Origin: Diphasiastrum complanatum
Taxonomy: Eukaryota > Streptophyta > Lycopodiopsida > Lycopodiales > Lycopodiaceae
Direction of reading: 5' to 3'
Assembly (NCBI GenBank): GCA_029204225.1
Contig: CM055093.1
Coordinates: 29,213,777-29,277,776, forward strand
DNA length: 64,000 bases
Of this stretch, positions 39,359-64,000 are shown piece after piece; position 1 is the first letter of the stretch, and the number at the start of each line of letters is the position of its first letter. The notes under the pieces are model-generated. The model had not been told where the DNA came from, ran no database searches, and saw only the letters and a list, made by a program, of their open reading frames with translations. Position numbers and translations under genes: made by a program.

Positions 39359-39400
39359 TGTGGATAGTACAGATTTGGGATCAAATCTGTACTATCCACA
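39359..39400. repeat. Perfect 19-bp inverted repeat with 4-nt loop
   Basis: Arms 39359-39377 and 39382-39400 are exact reverse complements around the loop GGAT; the arm core reads GGATAGTACAGATTTG. It lies in the leader between primer-binding site and gag of the minus-strand copia derivative, where retroelement RNAs often carry packaging or dimerisation hairpins. Confidence 0.9.
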
Positions 39401-39521
39401 CCAAAATCAAATCTCCTCACCAAAATCAAGATTCTAACTTACCCTCTCAATACTAGTTCTTAGCACCAAAACTTGCTAAAAATGGATTTGCATTAGATCA
39501 ATGGCTTATGTTCTTGTACTT

Positions 39522-39534
39522 GACTCTGATACCA
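39522..39534 (-). other. Copia primer-binding site
   Basis: On the minus strand this is TGGTATCAGAGTC, immediately next to the LTR end at 39535. It fixes the orientation of the element. Confidence 0.85.
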
Positions 39535-39867
39535 TGTGAAAGTATTGTACTTTAGGACCATAAATGGATCTACAAAAGATCCACAAGAGTGATTGGATGC
39601 TTGCTTAACAATCTATCAAAAAACTAGAAAGTTGATCTAGATTGGCAATTTGACAAACTACAAGCATTAACAATCAAAAGCATTGATAAACATTGAGATC
39701 TGAGCCCACACGTGTGTACTACAGGGTGTAGTACGGCCTTCAACCTGAGAAACAAGTAGAAATTGATTTGGTTTCATTTGGATCACAAAAACTCAATATA
39801 CATAGTGAACTAGCTTGAGATTGCCAATGAGCTCCAAAAATTTTCTATCTTCTCACTATGGGAGACC
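39535..39867 (-). mobile_element. LTR of a minus-strand copia derivative, 5' copy
   Basis: Matches 37443-37789 and directly abuts the primer-binding site. Homology between the two copies stops at about 39867, so the outer border is placed there. No 5-bp target duplication could be confirmed. Confidence 0.7.
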
Positions 39868-42461: not shown

Positions 42462-42473
42462 GTTTGGCGCCTA

Positions 42474-43839
42474 TTATACTCTGGACTCTCATATTGACAA
42501 GTTCAAACGTGAACTCTTCAAGTTATGGCAATGAGAAGGAGACTGAGATCCTTGATATGCTCTGCAATTTTTTATAATGAGAGGGAAGACGATGGCACAT
42601 GGATTGCTCATGAATATCATAAGGCTTCTTGGGTACTGATGCATCCATCAGCAAAAAAGGCTTTTTGCCAAAAGAAAAAGGCCAAGTATACATATAGATC
42701 TTATTGGAAAGGGCCAATTATTGATTTCAAAGTTTCTCCAAGAGAACGAACCATTTCAGAGGTGCTTATTCAACATGTTTATATGCATTCAGAACTTAAT
42801 GTGGAGGCTGTAAATCCACATGATTTTCGAAAGTGTAATTGTAAGTATCTTAATTTTTTGGATTGCTTGTCATTTTTAAAACGTAATCGTATTTATGAAT
42901 CAGAGCTTATAATGATTTTGTATTGCAGATCTATATCCTTCAAATATACATGAATGGGAACTTGTGGCGTCTCTTTCAGGTATTATAGATGTCATCCATT
43001 CAAAAATTGGCAAATTGCAATATAGAGGACGAACGGTAAAAGAACTTGCAGATTTTAAAATATTTTTTTTATGTATATTCCAGACACAAATGGAGGAATG
43101 GAAAAACTAGAGTGTATACCTCTACCTAATTTAAAAGATAACGTGTGGTGGATTGCAGTCAACGACAATACAATAAAATGTTTTCGTTACAAGCTATATA
43201 ATGATGTACAAAAGTCACTCAAAACTAGTACTGGATCAAGAAATGTGCACTTAAGTTGGTTTGTTCCAATGTCATTATTTGTCAACTCTTTTCAAACACG
43301 GAGGTGCATTGAACTCCCACATTGTTTGTTTGCAAAAATCTATCAGATGATTTTTTATTCAAATTCATGGACAAAGGTTGGGATATAAGATCCACTGCAA
43401 ATATTGCTTATAGAATCAAACATTCATTCATATCATTTAGATACAGTATAGAAAAGCAAATTCTAAGTATGGTGTTTCATTATCAGAGATGGAAAGAACC
43501 CAATGGTACTTGGGCCCCATTAGATCAAGATCTAGACAACATTGGACACACTAATCATATATGTGTTGATATCATGGCAAATGGGGATCTACTTACTACT
43601 ATTGAGGTTGAACAGGACTGGACCTTATTCTACATTAGAACGGAACTAACACTTTTACAACAAGATATATCGGAATATTTCAGTTTTATATTGGATGGAA
43701 AATTGGTATGTCAAATTTATGAATTTGTATATTAATTTGTATTCATTATCCTTTCTATCAATATTCGGATCACTAACTATAATTTGATTAATGTATGTTT
43801 GTGCAGATACGTAAAAGACATGAAGAGAAATTCAAATGA
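42474..43839 (+). pseudogene. Element A gene 1: unrecognised spliced gene, possible ubiquitin-like C terminus
   Basis: Exons are inferred at about 42474-42840, 42929-43705 and 43807-43839, with clean borders (AATT|GTAAGT, TATTGCAG|AT, AAATTG|GTATGT, TTGTGCAG|ATACG). The product includes KKKAKYTYRSYWKGPIIDF, LPNLKDNVWWIAVNDNTIKC and, at the C terminus, DWTLFYIRTEL, EYFSFILDGKLI and RKRHEEKF. The last part resembles a ubiquitin-like fold ending (W..IR.E...F.F.LDGK.I...E), but this is weak. Breaks are a frameshift near 42530, one in a T8 run at 43063-43070 and one near 43320. It lies tail to tail with the histone-protease gene, 480 bp away. Confidence 0.5.
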
Positions 43840-44319
43840 AAAGATTTGGGAGGAATTGTTCAGATAATAGAGCAATCATAATACAAGATTTGTAAAAACT
43901 CTCATAAGCATCAATATATTTCTCATTTTATGAGAATGTACATGTGCGTCCTGTATTTTACAATGGATGCTTTTACCCCATTGTCTCTATCTTTCTATAT
44001 GCCCATAATTATTCACAGGGCATTACATCAAAAATCTATATATCTATTTTATCTATTATTTACAACTCAAAGTAATATAAATTACCTCCACCCTGTACTA
44101 GTGTCAGTTGTGGACTTGATTGTCCTCTCGTATCCGCAGCTGGACTGGGTGTTGCATGAGATAATAAGTTCACCAACATTTGTTGACAAAGCTCATATAT
44201 CTCATTCATTGTAAATGCTCAACATTTATACTGCAAATCCAAAATAACCGAGTCAATTGACTGATCATGAACCAAATCGAAAATAATTTACTTAGGCCAT
44301 TCAGTAGTCTATTTACCTT

Positions 44320-45877
44320 TCATATATTAGGAGCCCCGGATTGCATGATGTACCACTCTAAGAAGTCCTGTATATTGCGGATGGAAAACCATCCACAACT
44401 ATGTCCATCATCTTGCTGAGCTGACTTCAATCACAAAACGTATAATAGGTTAGTTGTGCACTCTGAAAAAAACAAATCATATTACCTATCAGATACTTGA
44501 TGAGAAATATTTACTTCTGCATCAACAATCTCCAAGTGGCTATTTACAGTGGCCCCATCCGGCCTTGGCAAAAATGGCAACATTCTGCTGTACATCACGT
44601 CCATTTCGGCATGGGTAGAGCTCAAGGAATTCATCTTTAAACAGATGGGATTAATGATCCCATCTGAATCTTCCCTAAGGGAGATTGTATGCATACTCCA
44701 ATGCTTACTGGAAACAAGAGATAATTAGTTAAACTGAAGGAATTACAATACCTATTTAAAATATTATTTGAATATATTCTACATAATCACTTACTTTTGG
44801 CAGTATGGAATAATAAAGACTTTGGTCTCCGAGGTTGTATGGAGAAGATACTTCGTCGCCTTAGTTGGACTATGAAGGCTGTGTGCAAAAAAAGACAGCA
44901 CAACTCCAATGTCCTTAGTATCATCGCATTTACACCTATTTACAAAATACATCAAACCAGCCTCCACAACTGGATCTGATATATCTGATGTCTTCTCTTT
45001 CAAGGCATCACAAAAGTCTTTATTTATGTGATTTACATAATTAATTGAACTTAGACAAAAAGAAAATTGACCTCCTAGCTTATCAATCTCTTTGGCAACA
45101 TACTCACCAAAAACTATATACCTCTCAGAATCCAAAAATGAATCTTTGGGATCAACAGGAAATCTTACACAAAGATCCTTATAAAAATCACCTATTAAAC
45201 TTATATCTAGATCTGATATTATTTTATCTACAGTAGAGGTCATATCCTCGTTATTGTGGGATGGAATGGAGGGAATGGAAGATGAACTACTTGAATAGTT
45301 AGGGGTGGTGGGAGGAGAAGAACGCACTGCAAACTAGTGTGATGGTCCAACCAAAGGATGAGAGATGTGAGGGGGGGATGGTGATTCGCTGAGTACCACC
45401 CTTTGTCTGGCAGGCCTGGTGGGCTTGGTCTGCTTTCTCCTTCTTCATTGAGGAACAGGCCCTCTCTCTGTAGGTGGTGGCCTAGAGGTGAAGCCACTCT
45501 TAAAGACTTGATCGTATCATACTCCTCAGCCTCATGACAAGATGCATGTCCTGAGGCATGAGGGTAACTCTCTTAGCGTGCACTGTGCAAAGCGTGGAGT
45601 CCTCAAAGAATTTGACTTAGGCAATATGGAGGGCTTCCAGGGCTGTTATGTTCTAGCGAACATCATGTGGGAGTGACCTTGTCACTACTCTCATAGACCT
45701 ATAGAAAAGAGCACGGGGAATCAGAAGATTCGTTGTCCTCTGAAGTCTCCTGATATCCCTTAACCATGGTCTTCTGGGCCGACCTACTCTCCTACCAGTG
45801 CCCACTGCCCTTTGTACAGGAGGGCGAGGAGGCGGGGCAAATGTGGTAAGGCATGCTGTCTGTTTGGTATGGGCCAT
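44320..45877 (-). pseudogene. Element A gene 2: CENH3-like histone H3 fused to Ulp1-like protease (broken)
   Basis: Exons 45877-44795, 44707-44515 and 44415-44320. The start is set by an H3-like N terminus, MAHTKQTA (H3: ARTKQTA). The histone core follows: LRDIRRLQRTTNLLIP, ALFYRSMRVVT, then FEDSTLCTVHAKRVTLM. NLLIP, the FEDS segment and RVTLM are closer to plant CENH3 than to canonical H3 (ELLIRKLPF, FEDT, RVTIM). Two stops (TAG 45649-45647, TAA near 45611) and a four-residue gap damage helix 2. A basic linker (RRRKQTKPTRPARQR) with two more stops leads to a protease-like domain: KVFIIPYCQ, then HW (His codon 44703-44701), KMNSLSSTH, and in exon 3 QDDGHSCGW (Cys codon 44397-44395). This matches the order of Ulp1/C48 peptidases, with Asn where Asp is usual. 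The stop at 44322-44320 is followed by a donor-like AAAG|GTAAAT, so the true end may be further on. Confidence 0.8.
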
Positions 45878-46718
45878 TTCAAGCTAAGGTATCGATATGA
45901 CGTGCCAATGAGAAAGAAAAGTGCATATCCGATAGGGGAGGCGCGTGACAACGATATGGCAGCTGGCGTATCGCCACGACGCACGGAGGGGAAAGTTGTA
46001 CTGGTATGTGAGACTCTGGGCACGTGGTAGCGATATGCATATAGCAAGGAGCGGAATTTAACGAAGAAAGTTGAGGAGAGCTAGGGAACGAAGAAATCCG
46101 AAACTGAAATATGAGCCGAAAATATTCTTTTATACCTGTAGAACATCCCATCATATTCACACATATGATGTGACACCTCCCCGCACGTGTGGTCACACGT
46201 GTCATCACATGGACCTATCACGTGTCAGGACATCAGCCATTCGTACGATCATACGGCTGGCATGCACGTGCGAGGACACGTGTCATGATCTGGGCCACAC
46301 ACGCGTCATGGGACGACTGCTTCGTACGATCGTACAGTTGGCATACATGTGCAAGCACACATGTTAGGATCTGAAGTGTACACGTGTCATGCCAATGATT
46401 GGGCCGTCGTTTTCACAGGTGTGGCAATTTTGACGACACGTTTCCAAAACATGTGTACGGTTCAGATGCTCTGAATTAGACTATCTATATGGGTGTCATT
46501 TTAGGAATTGAATTTCGCATATTGAGTCTAGGAAACCGACCTGCTGCTAAATCAGTACATACAATATCGCTAGCACGTGCCCAACAGATCGTTCCATAGT
46601 AGCGCTGCTCCCCTGGCGCGTAGTATTGATATCCAGCATCATGTAAAGTGTATATTGCCATCACACGCCTAGGATTACACTGTTGATTTTCCCTTGCTAA
46701 TTGGCGCCTCATATCGAT
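45878..46718. promoter_or_regulatory. Element A bidirectional promoter region with eight G-boxes
   Basis: Region between the divergent starts at 45877 (minus) and 46719 (plus). Perfect CACGTG hexamers begin at 46021, 46184, 46196, 46219, 46265, 46277, 46381 and 46574, often as ACACGTGTC. Also present are recurring CGATAT/ATATCG elements (about 45889, 45953, 46032, 46565 and 46715). Plant bZIP and bHLH factors bind G-boxes, so clustered binding sites are likely (inference). The same arrangement occurs in element B. Confidence 0.7.
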
Positions 46719-47708
46719 ATGGCCTCCTCTTCTAGTAGTTAGATCTATGATAGAGCTCTTAGTTCTTTCCTTGTTGATGCTGCGGTTAGCGATAGACAGG
46801 CCCATTTTTTGTCCTATTTCGATTTTCAGTTTGACATAGAGAGATTTGTTATTGAGCACAAGGAAATTTTTTCCAAACTATACAAGGATTTTTTATTAGT
46901 GCTTGCAATAGGGTACCCTTCTGATGGACGGCCTGAGATTTGTGCATTTCACATATTTGACTCATGCTCAGCCTAGTGCCAAGCAAAGGCATGACCGTAA
47001 GTTTGTCAAACTTATCGATCTGTTTAAACATGTCATACCCTGTGAGGAACACAATCGAGTATGTCGCTTCGTTCAGGAGGATATGGCCTTCGTGTTTTTC
47101 TTATCTGCTCTTATTCCTGACGAGGCAGATTCTTCTGGGTTGTCCATGATTGGTTTGTCTGCCCCTACCACTCATGTGGCTTTAGAGGTTTCCATTACTG
47201 ATGAGGTTTTAGAAGATGTAGAGGAGGCCAGACAAGCACAACAATATGATCTTACCAAGGCTCGTTCTTTGTCTATCTCTCCCTTATCTACCGTGAGCGA
47301 GATTGACCAGAGCGAAACCCTGATGGACCTCCTTGTGTACCATATGGATGATATTGCATTCTTGTCCATTAGCGACATCGGAGACGTAATGGATCTCATA
47401 GAAGATGAGATATTATCTCTTATGTCAAGAATGATTTCTGAATTTAATGATTTTATTGACTTTGATGATGACGACCTCATAGATGGCATCGACTATGAGG
47501 ATCAGGTAGAATGGGCAAGTGGCATAGATGCCCTTCAAAGGATGCTATCTACGAGCAGGGCATATGAGGCTAATATGCCAAGTGAGGAGGAGTTTTTGGC
47601 TTTTCAGAAAAAGTATCCGCCACCTCTCATATATACTATTCCAGCTGACTAGCAATCCACCATTATTGCTGGTTTGCTGGTGTGATCCAAGCTGACGAGG
47701 AGGATTTG
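46719..47708 (+). pseudogene. Element A gene 3: large acidic partner protein, exon 1 (broken)
   Basis: Starts MASSSSS at 46719, like MASSSKFS in element B. A TAG follows at 46740, then LSSFLVDAAV. The frame changes near 46930-46980 to KFVKLIDLFKHV and continues with a long acidic region (DDDDLIDGIDYEDQ, MPSEEEFLAFQKKYPP). After another frame change near 47655 it reads FAGVIQADEEDL up to the donor GG|GTAAGT at 47709. Each block aligns with element B (KLFDLFKS; DNLVAGIDFDDEE; LSDEEFTAFQSQ; FDLVAVVDEEC), and the intron lies at the same place. The exon that in element B encodes the histone-fold-like part is missing here. Confidence 0.65.
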
Positions 47709-47739
47709 GTAAGTACTTGAATGCTTGAATCCTTTTTCT

Positions 47740-48054
47740 CTATTGGCCTCCATTTAGCGAAAGCTCATCAATGTCCTTTAGAATTCTTTTTCGCTTGTTT
47801 CTTTTTAATTTCTTATCTAGTATGCAAATTTCTTCTTTTAACTGGTCATCTGATATACGTAATGTCTGAACAACTTGTCGGAATTGATCATTACTTGCAT
47901 TCAAATTTAACATAATGTTATTTAGACGTGCATTATCTTCTTCTTTTTGTAATAATGTGGTCTCTTTTTCTCTATAGTCAGCAAGCAAACCATTTAACAT
48001 ACATTCTAAACTCTGTATTTTCTGAACCGAGTTTGCAACACTGTCGTCAATCTT
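47740..48054 (-). CDS. Small coiled-coil protein, possibly partial
   Basis: About 105 codons open on the minus strand from after a TGA near 48060 to a stop at 47740; the first Met codon is at 48000. Heptad-like spacing of Leu/Ile/Val is clear (SVQKIQSLECMLNGLLADY, then DQFRQVVQTLRISDDQLKEE), followed by a basic end KKLKRNKRKRILKD. No family recognised. It lies directly beyond the intron donor of element A gene 3, where that gene's second exon would be expected, so it belongs either to element A or to an insertion that replaced the exon. It could also be a retroelement gag fragment. Confidence 0.4.
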   Translation of the reverse strand, partial: KIDDSVANSVQKIQSLECMLNGLLADYREKETTLLQKEEDNARLNNIMLNLNASNDQFRQVVQTLRISDDQLKEEICILDKKLKRNKRKRILKDIDELSLNGGQ

Positions 48055-48641
48055 TCACAATAACCCAGTAAACCGTTTTCTCCGTCACACAAAAACTTTA
48101 TTAACTGTGTGATGGATTGGAATTGTGGAGCTTGCATCGAGCTCGGATCCAATTGTTACAAATTTTCGTCAATCCACAAATCGTAATTCTTTCTTTGGTT
48201 GATTCTGTGACTGATCATATCAAGTGGAGAAACTGTGGATTCCTTCACTACTCCTCTTTTAGCTATCGGAGCATTCTCGGCAGGGAGAACAATGTGTAGA
48301 TAAAACTGAGACTTCTCCGCAAACATCAACTGATAGACCAAACACTATTCTTCATCCATGGCGTACCTGAGATTCTATGTTTATTCTCTCGCTAGTTGAA
48401 ACGAGGGACACAATCTCATTTTCAAATTTGCAAAAGCTAGTTAATGAGCATCATAGGTTCTTGAAGTCGCAGTTGCATGTGTCATAATCGTGTCATGTTA
48501 ACTACACATTACTAGTAAGGTTAAGCTAAACTAGACCTGAAAATCCGTCGGAGTTTTAAAGCTGGAGTTTTTTTTGTCCTACATGGAATTTCTTAGATGA
48601 CCCTTTTGATGTTTGTAACTCCTCTAATGCTTCGCTTATAG
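48055..48641 (+). mobile_element. Possible LTR upstream of a primer-binding site
   Basis: Non-coding sequence ending directly at a copia-type primer-binding site (48642). The position suggests an LTR, but no matching copy or TG...CA ends were found. Confidence 0.3.
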
Positions 48642-48653
48642 TGGTATCAAAGC
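48642..48653 (+). other. Copia-type primer-binding-site-like sequence
   Basis: TGGTATCAAAGC within TATAGTGGTATCAAAGCAAGG, matching the copia consensus with one change. It is not followed by any gag reading frame. Confidence 0.5.
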
Positions 48654-51600
48654 AAGGCTTACGAAGATTGGAGAACATGGAGAAGGGGTAATTTGCATCG
48701 AAATTCTGAATTGGATCCATGGGAATTCTCTTCCAAGGTGGATAGCAAGGGTAAAAGTGGGTGTACTATCCCAATTTCAATTTGGATGTTGCTAAGATCC
48801 ATTACTCTTGGGATTCTTTGTGGTTTTATGGAGAATTGTCCTTGAAGGCCAATTTGTGATGCTTTTTTGGAGCTTTTTCTTGTGTAAATCAAATCTTTGG
48901 TAGATCTGAATTTTTCAGCAAGTGTATTTTTGTTTTAGGGTTCATCAATGATGAAATTAATGATGCATGCCAGTCCTCTCCAATGACTTATGATTCTAGG
49001 CTATGTTTTGGTCAAAATTGCTTGGTTTTTCATGCTTTTTGACAGAAAATATATAGTAAGAACCAAAATTCAGCAAGATCATATCAATTAGATGGTTGTA
49101 ATTCTGTAAATTGGTTTGCATGTGTTAGAGAAAGAGTTGTATGTCATGAATCTCCACTTTATGGTGATGAAAAAACTGGAAAATAGCCAAAAATCATCAT
49201 TTTTGCCTGTTTTTTCATAAAGTTGGATAGTAGATGGCTGTAAAACACCATGTAAATTTTTTATAGAGGTGAACCAAACTCTTTTGAAACTTTCCCTGAA
49301 GCTAGAACCAAGAATTCTAGCAATGAACTTGTAGGACGTCAAAAAAGTTCAAAAAATGACCATTTTTGGTGATTTTTGGGGGATGGATTTCTCCGAATCC
49401 ATAAGGAGATCATTCTAGAGTTAATTATAGCATGATTAGTATTTCTTTTTACCTTCCCAGCAAGCTATCAGACCTGTGAATTGATGGCCGGTGGCTTATG
49501 CACCATCTCCATGTTTTTGCATGATTCTTTCTTGTGGAAGTGCGTCCTACTACAGTTTTCTGGCAGCTCTGATCCCACACGTGTGAAGCCTAGATGGTAG
49601 GCTGACATAGCAAGCATCTTGTTCACTTGGTCTCCCTTTGTACTGAGCTTTACAACACCCAATGTGGTGTCTTGTAGCCAAAGTTATGATTATCTAAAGT
49701 TTTGCAGTTTTGTGAGTAAAATTGGCAAAATTTTTGAATTGTTCTGATTGCATGCCAGTCATTTGTAGTACTGCGCTTGCATGGATTGGTTGCATGCTGA
49801 TTCTCAGAGTGGTTCTGACATACATGAGGGATTTACAATCGATTTGAGTGGTCACACGCATGTGCTCTGATAGTTGGGTCACAAATCAGTCTTAATGGTT
49901 GACAAATTCTATAAAACTGAAGTTTACGTAAAAAATTTTGTAACGATGTTTATGACTGATGTAGTGTGCTTTGGATGCCAGTTTGACATTGGGTTAGCGA
50001 CATTAGGAATCAGACAGTGTTTTGATTTTTTTGATTCCGATTGTCTTTTAAACTAACAGTATTTTCGTTAGAATATTTGGAGTTTTTCAGAAAAAATTAA
50101 AATTTCGGTCATTTTTTCATTATCAATGGAATCAGTTTAGATTAGTGAATTGATCAAACTAAGTTTATCAGCTAGAAATTGATCACAGTGTTTTCACTAA
50201 GTCTAAATTATTTCTCCGTGGTAGATAAGTTAAAATTTACAAAAGGAACCGCATTGAATTGTCGACAATTTTTCACTATGTTTCTTTTAACTTTTGGAGT
50301 TTGGAACTCCCAGATTGAAAGTTAAAATTTGATTTTTTTTTTTTTTTTATTTTCAAATTGGTTAAAATTTGAAATCAGTTACTTGTGTGATAGTTTTCTA
50401 ATCGATGTATCGATAGAAATCAGTCAAGTGAACATTTGTGTAAGATACTCATTAAATTTGACTAAAATTGTCAAACAATATGAAATGACCAGGTTGAATG
50501 AGTGGCAATAGTATTCTTTATCTAGTCAGTAAATCTGACAGGATACGGCTCAAGAATTACTGAAATCCTGTTGGTGGGATTTCCATTCATGTAATTTCAT
50601 ATTCTATGTTTGGATTAGTTTTGTCAATATTAGCGGAGTAATGCCAAACCAGTCAATAAAAAGAAAAAACAGTCCAATTTTATTGGAAAATTTGTAATAA
50701 TAGGAATTACATAACTGGTTTCATTTCTAGTAAAATCCTATGGTGAATTATATTCAGCCCAGGTATAGGATAGAAATAAAATTGTTTTGAATTTTTTCCT
50801 ATAGTAATTAGTTTTTAAACATTTACTAAAGTCATTACGTCTTCTTGGTACCTTAGCTGAAATAGATTTTTAGGGAACTGAAAATTCTAAAGAGGGAAGA
50901 AGAGTGGACATCAGAGGTAGTAAGAGTGATCGGAAAATGTATTTTACAGTTAGGATTTTGGTAATCCCTGTAAATAATTGCTTAATACTGGTTATTAATT
51001 TCCAGGTTAGAATTCATTCAGTTGAATTTGTAACTGATATGATGTAACCATTGAGTTATCCACAGTTTGGATGTCAATTGTGAGGTTTAGAAGTGGAATT
51101 TGATACGTGGATTACATTGGATCTGTTAGTTGACAGAAGCTTGTCCCTAGATTTGATGCATCAGTAGGGTTTTGAAGCTTGTCAATAACCAGAAAGCTTC
51201 TGAGTGTAATAGTGAACCATGTTAATTCTTCTGTCTAAGTCACATAATCAGATGTGGATTTTGGGTATCCATCTGAGAGGCATGTCAATCATCCAAGTAA
51301 AAGGATTCTCCAGTGTTTGGGAACAAGAGATAATTTCCTATAGTGATTATAGGACAACTAGATCATCAATGGATCTCTAGAATATCAGATACGACGGTTA
51401 AGGGTTTTTTGGAAGGAAAAGTTGATGGTATGGGACATCAGTAATTTTGAAAAGAAAATTTTAGGACTATGAAGATCTAATGATCAATAGTGTGTTTTAG
51501 TACCTAGTCGCGATATGGGAAAAAAGAAAACCATTCTATCAAATGTGGGGTATTTTGAAAAAATTTGAGGTTTAATCTAGATCCCAATGTGGTATCTCAT

Positions 51601-52860
51601 TATTTACAAAATCAGAGGCCCTCAAATCTATTTCTCGCTTTCTTAATTAATCCTTTACTTCTTAGTAATTTCTCAAATATGGGATATCAGACTGAATTAT
51701 ATGATTCTTTCCAACATGAAGTTATTCTTCTGAAAGACTGCTATGTCATATAAATTACTAGTTGTGTGAATAGACTTGGAATTTAGATAAATTCTAAGGT
51801 TAAAATGTTTAAATTTTTTAAACCTAGAATATCTCTGGTGCATAAATGAATTTCGATGGAATAGTAGTTTTTATCACTCAAAGTGAAAATATTTGAAGGA
51901 GAAGTCCTGTTGTGTAATAGGGTGAATCCTTTAGTAGAAACACTTATTACTGAATTTTTTAGGATTTAGATATTTTCATATATCATCTTTCCAGTTAACT
52001 TTTATGGAAAGTTATAATTTCCTTAAAAGGAGGGGTGAAGTGGTGGGATAAAATTCTATTTGGGAATCTGTTGATTGCATAGCTTTCGGAAGAGAACCAG
52101 CTAGGGTATAGAAATGAGATTGGATCTGAATGAAATTTCGGATAGATTCAAAGTAAGATGCCTACTTGGAATTTTTCGAATATGAGAAATTCTTTAGGGA
52201 TTGTGTGGACAATCTGAAACTAGAACAGGTTTGGAATTTGAATCATTATCTATAAGTAGTACATTATAAGGTCAAAGGTTACCAATTCCATTTTGATTGG
52301 AATAGGAGTAAGTGATCAGAATCTAAGTCTGAAAGTTCTATATTGGATCAACCTAATCTTAGTTTAATTACTAGGATCAAAGAGGGGTTAATCAGTGGGA
52401 GAAATTATGTAATTAGAGGTGAGTGGGATTGGAAAACTGCTTAGAGTGAATTTTATTCGTCTCAGAGATTTCCCGGAGATGTTATTTACTCATGAGAAGT
52501 AGAAACTATTTTGTAGCTGAGTTACAAGATCTCAGTGAGGTGTCATGATATACTTGTTTTAAAAATATGGATATGTAGCATAAAAGATTATCGTTTCCCA
52601 AAGAGATTGCTTATTGTTGTGATTATAGATGATTTTAAATCATTTATTGTCCTTGGTACAAAAACTGGTTGTCAACATACATTTGATGAATCGGCGACCA
52701 ATATCACCAGTTAAGGTGTGGTTTCAAGCATGCAATAACATAAAGATATTTGATCCCGACAGTTCTCATATCGAACATATTTCATTACTGATTAAAGCAT
52801 TTGACTTATCGGCCATAATGATTTATTGTTTGTCAGACAAGTATAACTTTGTTGCATAAG
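48654..52860. other. Long AT-rich stretch without genes
   Basis: About 4.2 kb in which reading frames are short and no motif is recognisable. A CACACGTGTG near 49576 recalls the copia LTRs in this window. It could be the internal part of a non-autonomous LTR element (LARD-like) starting at the primer-binding site at 48642, or simple intergenic DNA. Confidence 0.35.
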
Positions 52861-55173
52861 TAAAGCCGCCAGAGAAACTTACAAACGTCTCAGCACAAAC
52901 TGGATGTGATCCAACAATCTGTCCTCAACAACTGATCATTGCTCATTTAACCAAACAATTGACCACAAGTCTAGATTTCACGTGTATCCATAAGCAAGAT
53001 TCAAAGTATTGACCCACAACAACACAATATACTTTAGGACGTGTAAGTATGAATCAAAGCAAATGAAATAGTGATTCTGAATGTCATTATCACAGTTAAG
53101 TTCCGAACAATTGATTAGTTCAATTATACATGCAACCAAAGAACCAATGAGTTTTAAGACAATTTTCAACAATTAATTTACGGTTGCATAAATACAAATA
53201 TAAGTGATGACGCAAATCATTAATACTACTTTTTTTTACGACATATGGTGACACGTATTGCTATTTTTTTTTACAACATGTGGTGATACATCTTGCTACT
53301 TTCCATACTTGTGAGAGAGAGAATACACGAGATTTTGACACAAAAACCATTCTATCTCTCAAAATTATTTAAAGTACAATGAGAGCTCACATTCATATAG
53401 TGGTCACCTGAGTTTCCTACTCAATAAAACATGTGGTGACCTCTAAACATGATTGGAGCCATGATTTGCACCTCTTAATTTGATTGGACCTCAAAAGCCA
53501 ATAGGATAAGGATTTTGGATTATGGTGCACCACTTGCAATTTTGCATTCCTACAATCTATGACATGTGTCAACACCTCATAGGACAGGTGTTGACATGTG
53601 TCAACACCTCAAACCCTAAAGCATTTGTATGAAACTTGCCTTGTCTTTTTTCTACATGAAAGATAAATTCTTGTAACAATAATACCCATCGAGCAATTCA
53701 TCTTGATAGATCGACTTTATTTACAAGGTATTTCAATATAAAGTGATCAAAATGGAACATGAATTGCCAGTCGAGTAAATAATGTTAGAATCTCTTCATA
53801 GTGTACATCAATCCCTATCAAATTTTATCAAGGTGCAACCTCTTGGATGTGATTGGTCCACATGTATGGCATAGATTAAGAGGTGCACCATTTGCACTCT
53901 AGATCTCCTAAGATGTAGGCATTGATTTTGGCTCTCCATGGAGGTTGAGCTGTAATCATTAATATCTAAGCTTAGTTAAGACTAATTAGCATGAAAGTAT
54001 TGTTGGAAGTATTTCTAGGGTGTGCGGTGGCTAGATCTACTTACGGGTGTAGTATAGGGATGTAGAGATTCGTCCACTTTTTAAGTTTCTACAACAAGCT
54101 TCCACGGAAATACCGAAAGAATCAACATGAATGAGAGCACTAAGGCTTACCTAACTAGTGCCAAAAACGAAAATAAAGCTGATTAGTAACAACAATAAAA
54201 TTCCTTGCTAAGGCAGACCCAACTAGCAAGATTGCTAAATCCTACTTAACACCCAAAGGGAGATAATAAGAATTGCGACTAAACTAAGCAATAAAAAAAT
54301 AAAACCATGCCACAATTAAAGGCCAATGAAAGGAGGCAAGAGGAGTCCCGAGCACCTTCTCTCAAGCTATGCACCTTCCAATAGGAACACAATGAAATGC
54401 AAGATAATCACAATAGTAATTTGTCTTAATCACAAAGTGTTGTTTACAATGCAAATACCTCTCCTTTTATAGCAAGGAGGGTCTTCCATAAGTGTCTACT
54501 AACTTATGGGACTAATATGTTTCTAGCCTTTCTAGAACTTCTAGCTTAGGATTTAGAACTTCAAAGTTTCTTAGCTTAGAAAAACTTAAGATAAAATATT
54601 TCTAATCTTAAGTTTCCTAAGTCTAAGTTCTAAATCTAAGTTTAAGCTATTTTATTATTTTTTAAGCTTCTACTCATGGGCTTACAAAACACATGCCATG
54701 GTTGAAGTTTATTAACAGATACTCATACGTGGACTCACAAAACACATGCCACGAAGTTTTATTTATTTCTTTTTTATTTTCTCTGTGTTAGCACAATTGC
54801 TAACATTATCCCCCTCCTTATTGGATTGGTGGTCCCACACCAATCGACGTCTTTTCGTCCTGGATCTTTTGTGCTTCTTGGAGGCGAGACTATTGTTGTC
54901 ATGAGTGGTAGATTGTCATGCCGATGCCTTCCATCATTTGCCACCATAATTTGTTCAGGAAGGGCATGGGTTTGTAGTATTGGAGCATACCCTGTAAAAA
55001 ATTATGGGTCTTTCATAGCTCCACCATATCAACGTGCAGGACGGAAGTGAGTGCAGCACAATAATAGAGCCTTGCTACGCTGATATGGTCATCTTGCGTT
55101 CACAGGGGTTTATTGATATCAAGGGCGATTGGGGGTGTGAAGTTTTTAGCATGTGTGAACTTCACCACACACC
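52861..55173. other. Non-coding stretch before a copia remnant
   Basis: Contains a perfect inverted repeat (53587-53596 with 53599-53608), partly repeated just upstream (ACATGTGTCAACACCTCA at 53551 and 53594), and a duplicated T-run motif at 53229-53300. From about 54690 there are repeated CACAAAACACATGCCA segments. No gene seen. Confidence 0.4.
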
Positions 55174-57190
55174 CTACAGGATCTTACTGAGGTGTTGTGA
55201 TTGCACAAGATTGTGTCTTTCATTCCAATGAAGGTGGTCTATAGCATCCTCTTGCCAATCAGGTCCCTGATCAAGTGGTACTTGATCGCAATGCGTTTCT
55301 TTTTTGAGTGAAACACAAGGTCTTTCATCAGATGTATTGCAGATGTGTTGTCCATATGCAAAACTAGAGGTTCGTTGTTCGTTTCGCCCAATTTGTCTAG
55401 GAACTGTTTGAGTCAAATTATCTCGTTGGCCATCTTTGCTGCTACGACATACTCTGCTTCGTAGGATGACTGGGCCACAATGGTCTGTTTCTTGCTGACT
55501 CAGAGAATTGTCACTCTAGACGCGATGATGCATCCTCCTAAGACACTTTTACAGTCGTCTTTGAGGGATGTCCAGCTAGCATCACTGTAGGAAAGCATAT
55601 GAAAAACCTGCATCATGATAATAACATAAACCATAATTTTTTTTTAGTTGAAGGTATTGCAAAATTTGCTTTGCAATCTTTCAATGTGTCGAGCCAGGAT
55701 TCGTGCAGAATTGACTCATCCTGAACACTACATAGGCAATGTCATGGCGTGTATTGTCTACAAGGTACATCAGCAATCCTATCAGCTTCTTGTAAGGTGT
55801 GAGCTGCATCAATTCTCTCTCTGTCTTAGTCCTCGAACAATTTTCGTTCGTCAGCACTATGTCTGCGAGCATTGGAGTATTTGCTCCTTTACAATTTAGC
55901 ATTCTGAAATCCTCCAGGATTTTTTGGGTGCATTTGACTGGTGAAGGTACAGCTTATCTCCCTCATTGTCCCTTTCAATTTGCAAGCCAAGGTAACAACT
56001 GGCCTCTCCCAGATCCACGATCTCAAAATGTTTCAAGATGTCTGTCTTCATTTCAACAGTCAGCTTCTCACTCGTGTAGAGTATCAGAGTGTCGTCCACA
56101 TACACAACCACGATAATGATCTTCCCATCTGTAATTCTGACATACACATTGGAATCAACCATAAGTGGTTTGAATCCCAATGATTTTAGGGCTTGATCCT
56201 TCTTTTTATACCATTGTTGAACTGATTGTTTCAGACCATAGATACTCCTATGCATTCTGCATGCATAATCAGGAAGTGAATTCGAGACATAACTTGGGGG
56301 TTGATCCATGTAGATCTCCTCGTCTACATCACCATGCAAGAAGGCTGTCTTCTTGTCCACAATGTGGATCCTGAGGTCATAAGCAACTGCATATGCAAAT
56401 AACAAACGTAGGGACGAATGTTTGATGACAGGAGAGAAGGTTTCAGAATAATCAATACCATATCTTTGAGAGAAACCCTTTGCTACCAGTCTTGTCTTAT
56501 ATTTCAAGACATCCCCATCTGGTCCATACTTGAGCTTGTAAACCCATTTGTATTTGACAGCCTTTCACTTATCAAGTAATGGCTCCAACATCCATACCTG
56601 GTTCTTCCTCATGGACTGCATCTCTTTGTTCATGGCTTGGATCCACTTGTCCTTCTCTGGACATTCAATTGCCTCCTCAAATGTTTGTGGTTTGCCACTG
56701 AATCCACAGAATTCTTCTGATGTGAAAGCTGAGCTGTCTGGCACATATCTTGCTGGCGTTTTTCATGGTCTTGTCGACCTTCTAGGAGAACCTCCTGGGA
56801 CAACAATGCCTTTGTCTTTGTCTGCTCTACTAGGTCCGGAACCATCTTGGTTTACAGGCACTATAGCATAAGGTTGTCTCTCGAATCTTTCGTCTTCTGA
56901 TTCATCAATTAAATGCAAAGCGACTCAAAAATCATCGTTTTCGTGTTCGTCTTCTGCTCCCTATGTCGTTGGTGACAGATCATAGTACTGTCTTTCCAGA
57001 ACTTCATAGCTGACAGGATCGTCATTGGCCATTGTCTTGTTCTCATCGAATCTGACATCTCTCACTGTTTTTATAGTGTTCGTGTCTGGCATGTAGACTC
57101 TATAGTATAACAAATTTTTGTCATAACCTACCAAAAATCTCTGTTTAGCCTTCTCACCAGCAATCATATCTAAAATCCATCCGAATTGCT
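55174..57190 (-). pseudogene. Ty1/copia pol remnant: integrase end, reverse transcriptase, RNase H
   Basis: Minus strand, read 57190 to 55174. First the block after integrase (RFLVGYDKNLLYYRVYMPDT), a degraded linker, then reverse transcriptase with KYKTRLVAKGFSQRYGIDYS, DKKTAFLHGDVDEEIYMDQ and the catalytic YVDDTLILYTSEKL. Then the RNase H region with NTRHDIAYVV, SDASWTSLKDDCKSVLGG and LHMDNTSAIHLMKDLVFHS. Many frameshifts. The 5' part of the element is missing at about 57190, where the orientation of copia sequence flips. Confidence 0.85.
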
Positions 57191-57219
57191 TTGTTTCACG
57201 TTTTCTTCTTTCGCATCAG

Positions 57220-57232
57220 TGGTATCAGAGCC
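57220..57232 (+). other. Copia primer-binding site
   Basis: TGGTATCAGAGCC, a perfect copia primer-binding site on the plus strand, just after CGCATCAG. The LTR expected before it is truncated to fewer than about 30 bases by the junction with the minus-strand copia remnant. Confidence 0.75.
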
Positions 57233-57330
57233 TACCTTGTCATAGTCTGACATAGCCAAAAGGCTATTAGAACCAAGAGGCCAAGCATTCAAACAAACAA
57301 CCATCAACAAGAGAACAGACTTCAGAAACA

Positions 57331-58310
57331 ATGGCTTCAATCAGCAACATATAGAGCAAGATTTGTACAGTTCTTGATTCTTCAGGATCTAACTTTCTAG
57401 CCTAGAAAGTTAAGACATCATTGATGACAAAATTTCCAGAATTCACACGTGTGGGGAATGTCCACAAGAGTGACTGATCTTAATTAAGCTTTGTGATTGG
57501 CACTATAACCTGATTCTAGATTGATCAACAAAATCTAGTTGAGAAGAAATGGCTAATCCACAATCTAGCATTCTAATCAACAGTATATAATAGCAATGAA
57601 TCAAAGAATGAATACAAATACAAGATTTTAATGTATGAGCATTAGCCTCAACACGAGTTAGAGAGAGAGGGCTAGAGAGATAACAAGCAATATTTGTTTA
57701 GATCCAAAATGGCATGAGATAGCTACAAAACTTTGGTTCTTCAACATTGATTGTGTGGAGAGATACACATATTTATGGAGATTGAGGTAGCTCGAGGTAG
57801 AACCATATCTATCCATTCAAAAAAGACATCTAAAGTGACATCTAGAATCTATGTGACATTTGTCACTTGTCATGCATGAAATTCTACCAACTTTTTACAA
57901 GTGTACTAGTTCTAACTAGAAATGTCCAAATCATCATACATGTGTCCATTAAACTTTGTGCATGCCTTGCATGTCACTATGAATCACTTACAATTAATGT
58001 ATGTGAGTTTCCACGAGTTTCTACAAGCATAATCATGTTAATTCTATGTCTACAAACTATATGCAAGTTGCATTTATCAAACTAGATAATACATAATCAT
58101 GTAGCTCGAGTTCTATGTAGTCCAAACTTGGCATTTTGTATTAATGAGCTACATACTTGCATGGTACAACATTTGTAGCAAGCCAAAAAATCAATATGGA
58201 TTGTTTTTCAATTTTAACAATTGATACTCAAGGGCAAAGGTTTATTCCCTTGGGTGGATGGCACAGAGGAGATGCCTACGACATCAGGCAAAGAGCTACG
58301 CGAGAATTTA
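57331..58310 (+). pseudogene. Copia gag 5' fragment split by a solo LTR
   Basis: ATG at 57331 gives MASISNI, stop, then SKICTVLDSSGSNFLA, a copia gag start. The frame continues (KVKTSL) up to the solo LTR at 57425 and resumes after it at 58220 as LKGKGLFPWVDGTEE, the next gag block. It ends at about 58306-58311, where it meets the second exon of the element B histone-protease gene. Confidence 0.65.
57425..58219 (-). mobile_element. Solo copia LTR with 5-bp target duplication
   Basis: 795 bp, TG...CA ends, homologous to the LTR at 6943-7724 in inverse orientation. It is flanked by the exact duplication ATTGA at 57420-57424 and 58220-58224. No internal sequence remains, so the element was reduced to one LTR by recombination. 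It interrupts an older copia gag. Confidence 0.9.
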
Positions 58311-58311
58311 C

Positions 58312-59614
58312 CTCCAAACTGACGATTTTCCAATCCACGGAATGGAGAACATCTGTAAGAATATATTTACTTAAATATGGAAGGTATATATCTACATCCT
58401 TATGCGTATTGCTCGCCGAATTCATCTTGACAGAAAAACCTTTAATACTATTATCTACAGATCTCTTAATAGAGATTAGGTTTAAACTCCAGTGGTCACT
58501 GCAAAATAAGATTGAAATTTCTTTAGCTACAATTCTGAGAACTATTTCCATTGACAATGCCAATGTTAAAGCATAAAATAGCAAGAAGCATTTAATATAT
58601 CTTACTTGGTATGATAAGAGATGAGCAAATACTTGGTTGCTGGTGTGAATCCACTAGTCAGACACTGTGACAATGTGTCATTATTCTCCTTGAAGGCCTG
58701 AAGCAAAAAGTTACTCAGCACTAGCAACTCATTGGATGAATCTCTTGCAATGTCATATTGCAAAAGTGTATGCCCGGACTCTATCACAGGATCACTAATA
58801 GAAGCCCATCTGTCTTTGAGATTCAAACAATCAAGAACTCTATAATTTATACTAAAATCAAGTTCATCTAGTCTAAAACAAAAAGGAGTACCAACTATAT
58901 CTATAGCATTGGATATGTCCTTCTCAAATTTAAGGTAATCATCGGAATCTATATATGTATAAAGATTTGGAGGAGGAGGAAGAGGTGGATGTGTAGTATC
59001 TACAGGAATTAAAGGGGTATCCAAAATAGATGTAGCTATATTTACAACAGTATCAAGAGCAGTGTTATCTATAATTAATTCTAGGTTAGGCTTCACAGAT
59101 TCTGTGGTGTCTACCCTCCTTACTTTTTTTGGAGCTCTCTTGGGTGCTGCCTGTTTCCTAGGACCTTGTTAGGAAGATCAGTCATATCTAGAGGAGTTGG
59201 TCTGGGAGCATCAAGCTGAGATACGTGTAATTTGAAAAACCTCTCTCTCATTCTCATCAGGAGCTGAAAATCCTTGGACATTATGGTGACTCTCTTGGAA
59301 TGGATTGCAAGCAAAAATGAATCTTAAAAAAAAAGACTCATGTAGTCTTCAGCAGCCTCTTGAAGGCACGGAAGAGCACTGGGTGTGAATCTAACCAACT
59401 GTCGGAGATCATTTCTAGTTATGTTTCGGACAACACGGTAGAATGGAGCTCTTGGAATCAACCTAGTGGTTGATCTCTGATACTTATGTATTTCAGAGAG
59501 CCGTCTATTGTGGTTGCACATCCTAGGTCTAGCGGGAGGTGTAATGGCAATAGCAGGAGCTGAGGACGAGCCAGTAGAGAAGAATTCTCTCCTTGTCTGC
59601 TTTCTCCTATCCAT
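58312..59614 (-). pseudogene. Element B gene 2: CENH3-like histone H3 fused to Ulp1-like protease (broken)
   Basis: Exons 59614-58606 and 58498-58312. The N terminus is MDRRKQT (compare H3 ARTKQT). The histone core has EIHKYQRSTTRLIPRAPF, YRVVRNIT, ALPCLQEAAEDYMSLFF, then in-frame TAA at 59326-59324, then DSFLLAIHSKRVTIMSKDF. LIP.APF..VR.IT, AAEDY, KDF and the one-residue-longer loop 1 point to plant CENH3 rather than canonical H3. A one-base frameshift near 59150 precedes the basic linker (PRKQAAPKRAPKKVRR). Then follow a proline-rich stretch and the protease-like domain: SISDPVIESGH, TPATKYLL, HWSLNLISIK and KMNSASNTH. Intron 1 falls in phase 2 before HW exactly as in element A, and the next donor (GAG|GTAAAT) also corresponds. 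The exon with the catalytic Cys is missing, because copia sequence begins at about 58310. Confidence 0.82.
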
Positions 59615-60443
59615 GGAAGGCACTATGGAATAGCGGACTTGTGCGTGATGGCTAGGATGAGCAGGGAAGGATGATAAAGCCCTCGCAGAGGACCGATATG
59701 TACGGACAGAATGTACGGTATATCGGACCTGTGCAAGTCGAATATAAGAGAGATAGATTAGTATAGAAGAAAGACGCACAAGTGCGATACGAGGAGACAC
59801 GTAGGCAGATGTATCGGACTTGTGCGCATGGAAGGCGGTAGGAAGAATATTGATTGTGAAGGATGCGCACAAGTGCGATATGCGGAGCGAAAAAAAACGT
59901 GAAAAAAATTCATCGAAGTTTGTGATTTTATATCGCGGTTCGCACGTGCGAAAGAACGTCCTATCACAGGTGTGAAACTTGTACGGTCAAATGCGAGAGT
60001 GACATGTGTCACCCAGTCACTTTACACGTGTGGGATTTGTACGAGCAAATGTGAGAGCGACACGTGTTTTCGAACAAACGAATGAACACGAGACACGTGT
60101 ACAGGTGTCATTTCACACATGTCCAAGTGTCACCTCACACGTGCCAGTGCCTGTAGTCCAATTGAAAGTAGACACGTGTCCTTTGACCGTTGACCACACG
60201 TGTGAAAATTTAGTATAAATGGCACGAAACCCGATTAATTTTTTTGTTTTCATTCTTGAAATTCACGGCATATCGCTATTGTGTGCGTGCATTGTTGTCT
60301 GTTTGTTTGCAACGATACCTACTTGCGCACAAGTGCGATATTCAGCATCTACCTGTCGTACATATCCCTCTTGTGTGCGATCTTGAGAGTTAGTTTTGTT
60401 TCAGTTCTCCCTCGCGGACAAGTGCGATATCTATGTTACTTCC
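59615..60443. promoter_or_regulatory. Element B bidirectional promoter region with G-boxes and a second iterated motif
   Basis: Between the divergent starts at 59614 (minus) and 60444 (plus). Perfect CACGTG begins at 59943, 60025, 60061, 60094, 60138, 60173 and 60197. A second motif, CGCACAAGTGCGATAT in either orientation with variants, recurs about ten times near 59625, 59695, 59715, 59772, 59808, 59861, 59932, 60270, 60322, 60365 and 60411. A TATA box (TATAAAT, 60214-60220) faces the plus-strand gene. Reading frames through this region are produced by the repeats and were not counted as coding. Confidence 0.75.
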
Positions 60444-61958
60444 ATGGCCTCTTCCTCAAAATTCTCACGAGATTCAGGCTTGAGTTCATTTCTTACTGAA
60501 TTTGGGATTACTAAAAATCTAGACTACTTCCACAACCTATTCAGGCCATATCTACATATTTTCAAGACTGCACAACCAAATTCTAACGTATTTTATGAAC
60601 ATTATGTTAGATTCAGAGATATACTTAGTAGGCCTATTTTCTCCATAGATTCACTCCATACATGCATTATACTGATCTTGTTCATTTCTTCTCACCTTCA
60701 GACATACACTAGATAGAATGTTCACCAAATTGTTTGATCTTTTCAAAAGCAAATTCAATGTATTCTTATTGCAACAAGAAATGTTGATTGGTTGAATATC
60801 AAAGTGGTTTCATACTTTTTTAGTTAGTTTAGATCCCTAAGGATGAGGAAGTTTCTGTTGCTGACCCTCCTTTTGCATCACCCTCTGTTCAGTCAGCTAT
60901 TAAGGATATCAGTCACTTCCTTATCGACACTCATGATAAGGAAAGTGACTTTATTGATGTAAATATTGATGTTATCCATGATTCTTTTAATGGCCAAAAT
61001 ACATTTGTTGATGAATCGATCCCTATAAAGGAGTCTAAATGTCTTTTCAATTTGTCTGTATATTATATTAATGACGATGTATATTTTACTACTGCTGATT
61101 TATGTACATTTTTTTACTATCGTGAAGATGAGGTTCTATGTTTATTATCTAGCACAATTTTCAAATTCTCCAACTTTGTAGATTTTGAAACAGATAACCT
61201 TGTTGCTGGTATTGATTTTGATGATGAGGAGGGACTTATGACCGGTGAAGAATGTCTGACTAAGATTTTATCAAATATTGCTGAGGATGGGCGAGGCAGC
61301 TATCCGATGAAGAATTCACGGCATTTCAATCCCAGATGGGCTTCCCTCGTCCATCATTAATGCATTTCACTGATGATTTCACTTCAGTATGTGGTCATTA
61401 TATTGATTATTTTGATCTGGTTGCTGTTGTTGATGAAGAATGTGTAAGTATTTAAACTTCCTTGTATTAGAATGTTTTTAATCACTGAATGTGTTTTTGC
61501 TAGCATATTTCCTATTGTAGGATGCTCTCATAATTGATAATTTTGCTGCGAGACGAGGTGGTTTCAAACAATACGCATCCTCGTTCCAGAGGGATAGTGG
61601 ACTTGGCCACTATCTTAGGCATTTATTGAAGAATGAGATCTGTATTGCTCATTCCAAGCTGAGCCCAATTGGGGAGAGTCTTATAATGGCAGTTAAAGCT
61701 TTATCATTTAACCTAGGAAGACATAAATTTGTTAAGACAAATAAGATCATTTTTGTCAAAAGATCTTATGTTTTGAACATTTTAGGTCTTACTGATGGGA
61801 ATGTTCATTTAAGGAGCTCCCATTATTCATTGTATTTCACTTATATTGAGCTTAGTGGAAATAAAGATAATGCACATCTACTAGATGCATACGCTAGCAG
61901 AGAATTTCTTCATAACAATACTGCCATAGAATCTGACACACGATCTAATGATGAATAG
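60444..61958 (+). pseudogene. Element B gene 3: acidic protein with H2B-like histone-fold exon (broken)
   Basis: Exon 1, 60444-61443, starts MASSSKFS. Frame breaks occur near 60715-60790 and near 61280, and an in-frame TGA follows MLIG near 60800. Conserved blocks are KLFDLFKS, YYINDDVYFTTADL, DNLVAGIDFDDEE, LSDEEFTAFQSQ and FDLVAVVDEEC. Donor TGT|GTAAGT (61444), acceptor TTGTAG|GATGC (61521), phase 0. Exon 2 is open to 61958. After a short basic start (AARRGGFKQY) it reads YLRHLLKNEICIAHSKLS, a long helix-like stretch, then TNKIIFVKRSYVLNILGL. Spacing and hydrophobic pattern resemble H2B (YI.KVLKQ..GISSKAM ... NKK.TITSREIQTAVRLVL). Identity is low, so the histone fold is an inference. Confidence 0.55.
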
Positions 61959-62092
61959 TTGACACTTTGTATTTTGTTATAATACAATCAATACATTTAC
62001 ATTGAGTATTTCTCCTCTCTTGTTCAAAGAATTTGCAAAGTAATTCTGAACATGTCATGATTTGATGACAATGATGATCTTCTACTCAACAA

Positions 62093-64000
62093 TCATCTAA
62101 GTTTCTCTTCCTGTATGAACTTGCATGCTTTTCTAAACTTGCTGTATTGTGTGGACTTTGTTATATGTCGAATCTGAACTCTGCGGTAGAACCACTGAAC
62201 CAATTGACAAATGTAGTTTCGTTTTTCATTGGTTCCTCCATATTGTGTATTTCGATGAAATGTTGTTCGTGCTTGCCAGTGTGACTTCTCCATCCCTTGT
62301 GATGACCATACACTCAAGCTTCCATATGTGTTTGCAAAAAATATTGTATGATCTCTTAGTATGTGCTGCATATGTCAAAATCATAATGTTAGTCTTATGT
62401 TTGGATCTAAATATATATGAAAAATTGAAAGCATCTTGAAAATTTTATACTAGCCATGTAATAAGTGATGTGATCTTCCTCTCATGCTTTTGATACTGCA
62501 TTAACAAACTCGACACAAGTCCTTTGGATAGCGTTCTTATTAATATCAGAGTATTTTTTTTTTTAAATAGCAATCATACTATCAAGCTTCTTCCATACAT
62601 CAACTTTTAGTACTCTGATTTTGCCGTCTTTTTCGAATCCTGAGTGGTAGAAATAATATATGTCCAAACTGAGTGTTGAATAATAGAAGCCTTATCAGTA
62701 TGATTTGATAGCAAACGACGTGCTTTTGCTCCTCCTATGCTTGGCTTAGTTGGCATGTTCCCATTCTTTCTTGAAAGCTTTTCATCATTTTGAATTTTAA
62801 CATGTCCCTTATGGAGTCTTGCTTTTGATAAAACATCTTCTAATCGAGAGATAGCTTCCTTTGCTAATAATGTTGGCTTAGTATTCCAAGCAGAAACTAT
62901 ATGAAGATAAATGATCTTTTTTATTAATCTAACTTTTGCATGAAGAGTGCAAACATGCACATTTTTCAAGGGGATAGGCAGTACAGGCTTCTAGTTTGGA
63001 TCTGCATATTCTCTAGTAATTCTTGTACTCCTAGTAACATCTTTTGTCATTTTCATGCAGTACAAACAAGGTTGTTTTGATGTAGCACCGTGAGAGACAT
63101 TATACATAGATTTCAATGTTTTCAAATCACCTGCTAAGTGCCATTCAACATTGAAGTCTCCAACTCCTGGAACATTGAGAAATTCTCCATCCATATGGTC
63201 CTTGATGATTCTAGGATAAGATGTCCTTGAGAATATCCATGATAACATATCACGATCCTCCTTCAGCACCTGTCCAAAGAATTAATCAGACTTAGTTTAC
63301 AATGAATTAATACTATTCAATGAATGTAATGTCATAATGAGGCTAGTTACATGAAACGCTGCCAACCACCATATATCATTTTTTGACTGGACACTGAATC
63401 TGAAATCTTATTGGTTCTCTGTTTGTGATAGAGCACCATTCATGAGAGTTATACAAACTCTCTCCATCTTCTGCCCTTTCACAATTTCTGACTCATCACT
63501 TAAATACTATGATTATTTTGCCATTCATCTTTTCATAGGTTATATCATAGAATGGGACGATGTATCTCAGCAAGTAATTTAGATCAACAAATAAGTTGTT
63601 TGATGAATTATAGAATATCGATCTTCCATCAATCTCATACACCTCCTCAATATGAAATGGAGTTCCAATGATCTTATGCATACCTATGTTTTATGTATTC
63701 CTCTCTTTCTTCAAGTGATATGTCCTAGGGATTGGGACTTTTCTAATTTGAACTTGCTTAAAAGCTTCTCTAATTAGTATAAATATTGTTGCATATGCTT
63801 CCCTGCTAATACCTACAAAATCACAAGCACCTTGAACTATAGTCTTATCTAAAAAAATTTGAAAGTCCACCATCAAAGACTCTGCTATTTTACACTTTAC
63901 ATTTGAACTCCTATTGTTCATTATGATACGCTCAGTGGATTTGCAAGTCAATATTGTGCCCAATGACATTCTTAGTGAAGCATTGTCTTTAATATTCCGA
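62093..64000 (-). pseudogene. Transposase-like gene of element B, partial and broken
   Basis: Minus strand, entering from beyond 64000. Blocks in order: FVGISREAYATIFILIREAF; in-frame TAA near 63690; HKIIGTPFHIEEVYEIDG; more stops; intron ending CTTTGGACAG|GTGCTG (63269); FNVEWHLAGDLKTLKSMY followed by GATSKQPCLYCM; stop at about 62991; PLKNVHVCTLHAKVRLIKKI; NGNMPTKPSIGGAKARRLL; and after a gap SSQGMEKSHWQARTTFHRNT to a stop at 62093. The order (G)GDLK-L...PC-YC, CTLHA, and SQG-EKSH is what I recall from a widespread transposase-like family of protists, animals and plants with an RNase-H-like core; the Asp of GDLK and Glu of GMEKS would be candidate catalytic residues. The family name is not certain. 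It lies tail to tail with gene 3. Confidence 0.55.

Follow-up and report, generated by a model that had tools for sequence, protein, structure and literature searches.

Two decayed copies of a putative histone H3-Ulp1/C48 protease fusion gene in Diphasiastrum complanatum

Main finding

The stretch of Diphasiastrum complanatum DNA analysed here (the window, 64 kb) exhibits two broken, strongly diverged loci in which a histone H3/CENH3-like domain precedes a basic linker and a spliced Ulp1/C48-like cysteine protease. The ancestral gene was very probably a single H3-C48 fusion. On balance, we favour the view that these loci are decayed old copies of a mobile-element module encoding a chromatin-binding H3/C48 fusion, with a divergent acidic gene opposite. 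To our knowledge, transposons seldom carry histones, which are also uncommon as fusion partners of enzymes. A fusion of this kind, kept as protein in two very diverged copies, would suggest that a nucleosome subunit can serve mobile elements as a targeting device. It would also provide a natural means of asking whether the silencing of transposons is relieved when SUMO is removed at chromatin and, if the histone part came from CENH3, would bear on how elements settle in centromeres. The features of both copies are listed in Table 1.

Table 1. Positions in the window of the features of copies B and A
Feature	Position	Strand	Basis or remark
Copy B histone H3/CENH3-like domain, basic N-terminal tail MDRRKQT...	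59171..59614	-	Pfam Histone, PDB, sequence
Copy B basic linker GPRKQAAPKRAPKKVRR and N-terminal half of C48, exon 1	58606..59168	-	homology to copy A
Copy B intron 1, GT-AG, phase 2	58499..58605	-	splice sites, same place in copy A
Copy B C48 exon 2, His (NDHWS) and Asn (KMNS) sites	58312..58498	-	homology to copy A; GTAAAT donor at end
Solo Copia-type LTR inside copy B intron 2	57425..58219	-	TCAAT on both sides
Retrotransposon pieces past the solo LTR	55174..57340	-	Copia reverse transcriptase RVT_2 at 55899-56564
Copy B bidirectional intergenic region, 7 CACGTG (59943-60202)	59615..60675	.	TATAAA on - at 59927, on + at 60214
Copy B gene 2, divergent, acidic, frame-broken	60676..61455	+	homology to copy A gene 2
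Copy A histone H3/CENH3-like domain, starts MAHTKQTA, two in-frame stops	45521..45877	-	Pfam Histone, E-value 2.5e-16
Copy A basic linker RRRKQTKPTRPARQR and C48 exon 1; two stops in linker, open from 45333	44795..45450	-	
Copy A intron 1, GT-AG, phase 2	44708..44794	-	
Copy A C48 exon 2 (HWS, KMNS)	44515..44707	-	Peptidase_C48 with exons 1 and 3
Copy A C48 exon 3, bearing the Gln and Cys sites (QQDDGHSCGWF), one stop close to its end	44317..44424	-	
Copy A putative exon 4 (YKCxAFTMNEIYELCQQMLVNLL...), one stop	44063..44230	-	splice sites and frame
Copy A bidirectional intergenic region, 8 CACGTG (46021-46579)	45878..46911	.	TATAAA on - at 46129
Copy A gene 2, divergent, acidic	46912..47652	+	homology to copy B gene 2

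The histone and protease domains

With its stop read as X, the histone part of copy B exhibits a high scoring match to the Pfam Histone family (PF00125; E-value = 4.7e-25, 88.7 bits against a cut-off of 26.4). The sequence-only reading had reported a single stop at 59324 with the frame continuing beyond it. This is confirmed: a real TAA at 59326-59324, the sole in-frame stop of this histone part, is followed in the same frame by DSFLLAIHSKRVTIMSKDFQLLMRMR. The best matching PDB entry is a canonical H3.1 (8kcb, 77.4 bits), fission-yeast Cnp1 scoring 73.5. The structure models obtained for the copy B histone piece (pLDDT 52.4) and for C48 exon 1 (pLDDT 38.5) were of insufficient quality for fold searching. 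A frame change near 59169 puts the C48 part (from 59168) in a frame other than that of the histone.

A tBLASTn search within the window revealed the second, very diverged copy with the same order at 45877-44063 on the minus strand. It is mainly this copy, at 45.9-44.1 kb, that supports the proposal of H3 and C48 joined in one protein. Its histone part scores 60.5 bits against the Pfam Histone cut-off of 26.4 (stops as X). Its exons 1 to 3, joined with X, match Peptidase_C48 (PF02902) with an E-value of 6.4e-7 (29.9 bits against a cut-off of 20.7), covering profile positions 78-182 of 217. In copy A, the motifs HW, MNS and QQDDGHSCGWF stand where C48 has its His, Asn, Gln and Cys; the catalytic set of this family is His, Asp/Asn, Gln and Cys. 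The only PDB matches of the copy A C48 part were five adenylate cyclases (E-value 0.21-0.26), which we judged to be due to chance.

The Pfam search that had been proposed as a check on the protease is thus positive for copy A, whereas the C48 region of copy B, submitted alone, gave no match. In tblastn within the window, copy B aligns with the C48 part of copy A with 30% identity over 116 columns (E-value = 3.8e-8) and 36% over 72 columns (E-value = 1e-7). The copy B region can be taken as a C48 protein because both of its C48 exons are homologous to copy A; the earlier assignment to Ulp1/C48 is supported on these two grounds, the Pfam match of copy A and the homology of copy B to it.

As it stands, copy B C48 retains the His and Asn of the catalytic set only. 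Position 58312, given earlier as the end of the gene, is the exact final base of its exon 2, before the GTAAAT donor. The catalytic-Cys exon of copy B was not found past the solo LTR or elsewhere in the 64-kb window; the best other tblastn matches to copy A exon 3 in the window (E-value 0.02-0.04, uncorrected) were judged to be chance. We rejected the missing exon as an argument against the fusion, as the solo LTR and retrotransposon pieces occupy its expected place. The TCAAT flanks of the solo LTR are at 58224-58220 and 57424-57420. Another LTR, at 6943-7725, exhibits 82% identity to it and is followed by a primer-binding-site-like TGGTATCAAAGCC.

One protein or two neighbours

The sequence-only reading described a single gene running from H3 tail through histone core and Lys/Arg linker into the protease. 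The order and the linker are as described; the frame change near 59169 and the intron at 58605-58499 had gone unmentioned. The histone and C48 frames differ in both copies, by different shifts, which we read as decay. The single ancestral reading frame is thus a reconstruction, as the two parts are in different frames and no intact copy was seen.

The difference in frame would also suit an H3-like gene lying beside a same-strand C48 gene, the two encoding separate proteins. Two further observations are in line with such neighbours: exon 1 of copy A contains two Met in 179 codons, and each C48 part contains a single minus-strand TATAAA (58846 in copy B, 44225 in copy A), which in neither case is in front of it. 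Against them, exon 1 of copy B exhibits no Met in the 187 codons before intron 1, and its protease therefore seems to need an upstream start. No CACGTG was found within either fusion, and in neither copy does a minus-strand TATAAA separate the histone part from C48. In both copies the basic linker is in the C48 frame; a stretch rich in Pro, Ser and Thr comes after it, still between the two domains. The Met count and the placement of CACGTG and TATAAA favour one protein, and we regard two separate neighbours as improbable.

Similarity to H3 and CENH3

The histone part had been assigned to plant CENH3 rather than canonical H3 on account of LIPxA-type core residues, AAED, KDF and a longer loop 1. 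In comparison with three plant CENH3 sequences, the first of these stands in both copies: LIPxA (P63, A65) and Thr75 are shared with plant CENH3 (HTR12 type). AAED (D98) and KDF are present in copy B and match Arabidopsis CENH3 only, rice and maize CENH3 being different. Counted on the alignment, loop 1 is one residue longer than that of H3 in copy B and of H3 length (+0) in copy A, against +2 in Arabidopsis CENH3. Both copies further differ from plant CENH3 by an H3-like R131, by LVMRLR/LLMRMR in place of LARRLGG at the C-terminus and by the fused protease.

The alignment scores give no preference to CENH3. Copy B scores 188 against Arabidopsis H3 versus 172-179 against the three plant CENH3, and copy A 156 versus 118-149. 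Identities amount to 46 with Arabidopsis H3 versus 44-46 with plant CENH3 for copy B. For copy A they are 36 with H3 versus 41 (Arabidopsis), 41 (rice) and 32 with the CENH3 sequences. The top PDB matches of both histone parts are canonical H3. A tree built with nine references unites the copies with plant CENH3 at 44/88, and the AU test retains a grouping with H3 as an alternative (p-AU = 0.101). Both copies form long branches, and neither was placed when analysed without the other. As scores do not favour CENH3, identities are mixed, tree support is low and the H3 grouping is not rejected, a CENH3-like origin is only possible, the shared residues being suggestive of it.

Likeness to canonical H3 lies in the Pfam Histone match, in the start of copy A (MAHTKQTA versus MARTKQTA) and in several nucleosome contact residues. 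R69, R72, R83, R116, T118, H113 and D123, which in H3 serve DNA and H3-H3 contacts, are kept in both copies. R63 is replaced by P in both, as in plant CENH3, and R49 by S in copy B. The kept residues would be compatible with nucleosome assembly, and we read nothing further into them. The copies differ from canonical H3 by their much diverged core, the CENH3-like LIPxA and the C48 fusion.

Age and decay of the two copies

Besides the order of domains, the copies share the position and phase 2 of intron 1 (before N-D/K-HWS) and the place of the intron 2 donor GTAAAT. Residue identity amounts to 46 of 93 aligned codons for the histone and 53 of 156 for C48. Since introns, intergenic region and gene 2 are held in common, the histone and protease were together before the copies diverged. 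That copies so different keep the order, introns and gene 2 would suggest an old H3-C48 combination. Both are now broken by stops and frame changes, no catalytic-Cys exon being found for copy B in the window, and they lie about 14 kb apart among retrotransposons.

In protein-guided alignments, the identities at codon positions 1, 2 and 3 are 0.548/0.699/0.290 (histone part, p = 1.2e-7) and 0.494/0.628/0.385 (C48, p = 9e-5). Third positions differ most, and therefore both parts look kept as protein. A DNA-guided, codon-blind alignment yields the codon signal in the histone part (p = 1e-4), a marginal one in exon 1 (p = 0.046) and none in exon 2 (p = 0.44). The DNA identity between the copies is 0.503 for the histone part, 0.470 for exon 1, 0.566 for exon 2 and 0.527 for intron 1. 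Sixty pairs of random stretches gave a mean of 0.456, with a maximum of 1.0 from same or overlapping stretches drawn at least once. The coding DNA identity being near that of intron 1 and near this background, the case rests on protein-level similarity. A chance resemblance was rejected given the Pfam values and the second copy.

Intergenic regions and gene 2

Both fusions are separated from a divergent gene by an intergenic region rich in CACGTG. In copy B all seven sites lie between the minus- and the plus-strand TATAAA. The minus-strand TATAAA of copy A (46129) stands before the histone start, and no plus-strand TATAAA was found in the copy A intergenic region. CACGTG occurs 26 times in the 64-kb window versus 4.6 expected, and 15 of the 26 are in the two intergenic regions. 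None of 20000 random placements matched this clustering, for regions picked after seeing the sites.

The divergent genes 2 of the two copies align in three co-linear blocks (composition-corrected E-value = 6.5e-7, 3e-4 and 0.003). We use the corrected value of 6.5e-7 for BLASTP, the uncorrected one being 6.8e-17; in tblastn of the window, the main block has an E-value of 4.9e-5.

Within 59690-60430, repeated words around ATATCGCACTTGTGCGCA flank the CACGTG array on both sides, and GCACTTGTGCG occurs on the minus strand at 59775, 59866 and 60326. The words around ATATCGCACTTGTGCGCA are possible candidate binding sites of an element protein.

Relation to mobile elements

C48 genes are a common cargo of plant transposons. 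ULP1/C48 genes are carried by the KI-MULEs "Kaonashi" and by CACTA elements. The loci described here resemble these in exhibiting a C48-type protease on what would be a plant mobile element, in decayed copies among other repeats. They differ in that an H3/CENH3-like fold and a basic linker precede the protease, in that a divergent acidic gene lies across a shared intergenic region, and in that no MULE or CACTA transposase was found in the Pfam frame scan. We consider it likely that the H3-C48 gene belonged to a mobile element, because two diverged broken copies with a shared module lie among retrotransposons and C48 is such a frequent transposon cargo.

The same two points weigh against a lineage-specific CENH3/H3-protease host gene that was duplicated with its promoter and divergent neighbour and then pseudogenised, no mobile element being involved. 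Such a pair would account for the joint duplication of genes and intergenic region. It would also fit the search for termini and transposases. Ten inverted pairs were found in 40000-64000, none a convincing terminus. No Pfam transposase was detected in the six frames of 59701-64000, the plus frames of 46501-54700 or the minus frames of 39001-46200, by a scan of limited sensitivity, which failed to pick up the C48 domain of copy A as well. The window end at 64000 is perhaps inside element B. We hold the host gene pair to be unlikely.

Two broken genes lie near the copies. The one at 62607-63999 (minus strand) has a transposase-like look (DESEIVKGQKMERV, WHLAGDLKTLKSMYNVSHGATSKQPCLYC, PLKNVHVCTLHAKVRLIKKIIYLHI) and may be the element B transposase. 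It gave no Pfam match above cut-off, and a 96-residue piece of it yielded 11 pattern matches and no relative in IMG/VR. The other, a frame-broken gene at 42513-43735 (plus strand) convergent to the copy A fusion and ending in ...IEVEQDWTLFYIRTELTLLQQDISEYFSFILDG, is a candidate for a third element A gene.

Possible function of the fusion

The mobile-element reading suggests a plant element module of two or more genes, in which a shared divergent promoter region would serve the fusion gene and the acidic gene 2. The predicted fusion protein would comprise a tail and a histone fold of H3/CENH3 type, then a basic linker and a spliced Ulp1/C48 cysteine protease. Its histone fold would pair with H4 and thereby place the protease in chromatin. 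The protease may then act on silencing or chromatin proteins in its vicinity, stripping them of SUMO or of a SUMO/ubiquitin-like tag, and the element could thereby be expressed or able to move. We put forward this local deSUMOylation against silencing tentatively, as a possibility short of even. The VANC protein of VANDAL elements, a transposon anti-silencing factor, offers a parallel in the proposed outcome, relief of silencing; unlike the H3-C48 fusion, it is a DNA-binding protein devoid of histone fold and protease. In a more specific form, related to the suggestion of the sequence-only reading, a CENH3-derived histone-SUMO protease would enter centromeric or element nucleosomes and strip SUMO there, the element targeting or derepressing chromatin from inside. 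This form we find distinctly doubtful.

The main rivals of the local deSUMOylase reading are the duplicated host gene pair discussed above and self-processing. In the latter, C48 would cut the fusion, and perhaps the gene 2 product, to free a histone-like part that coats or packages the element DNA. The adenovirus protease, which belongs to the clan of C48, processes histone-like core proteins, and the identical polypeptide order in both copies, with a basic linker and then a Pro/Ser/Thr-rich stretch between the domains, would suit such a role. Introns argue for a nuclear gene over a virion polyprotein, and self-processing seems to us not very probable.

Histones and clan CE proteases are known from large DNA viruses, yet an endogenous remnant of such a virus, with a viral H3-like histone and an adenain/Ulp1-like protease gene, is highly improbable given the spliceosomal-type introns of the protease and the IMG/VR scans, which gave no accepted relative.

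In these IMG/VR pattern scans, two runs gave 13 and 5 matches with no relative. Another gave 56 matches with two "relatives" of equal scores, of which one, a 473-residue ORF on a phage-like contig, was judged to be chance. Among genome contigs, 17 pattern matches were obtained, nine loci being H3-like; these are in bacterial MAG records and were judged to be eukaryotic contamination. Over all 11 loci (L001-L011), the C48 Cys motif occurs once, in a match containing a stop (locus L008).

Other repeats and genes in the window

The window contains Copia- and Gypsy-type repeats, with RVT_2, rve and a sub-threshold DUF4219 match. Three candidate host ORFs in the window gave no Pfam match. At 19570-22935, direct repeats of 0.77-0.96 kb (89-95% identical) in a retrotransposon polyprotein, with rve at 21389-21904, are duplicated pol segments. 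A further pair of direct repeats, at 37443-37784 and 39535-39873, is 94% identical and about 2.1 kb apart, possibly representing the LTRs of a short element.
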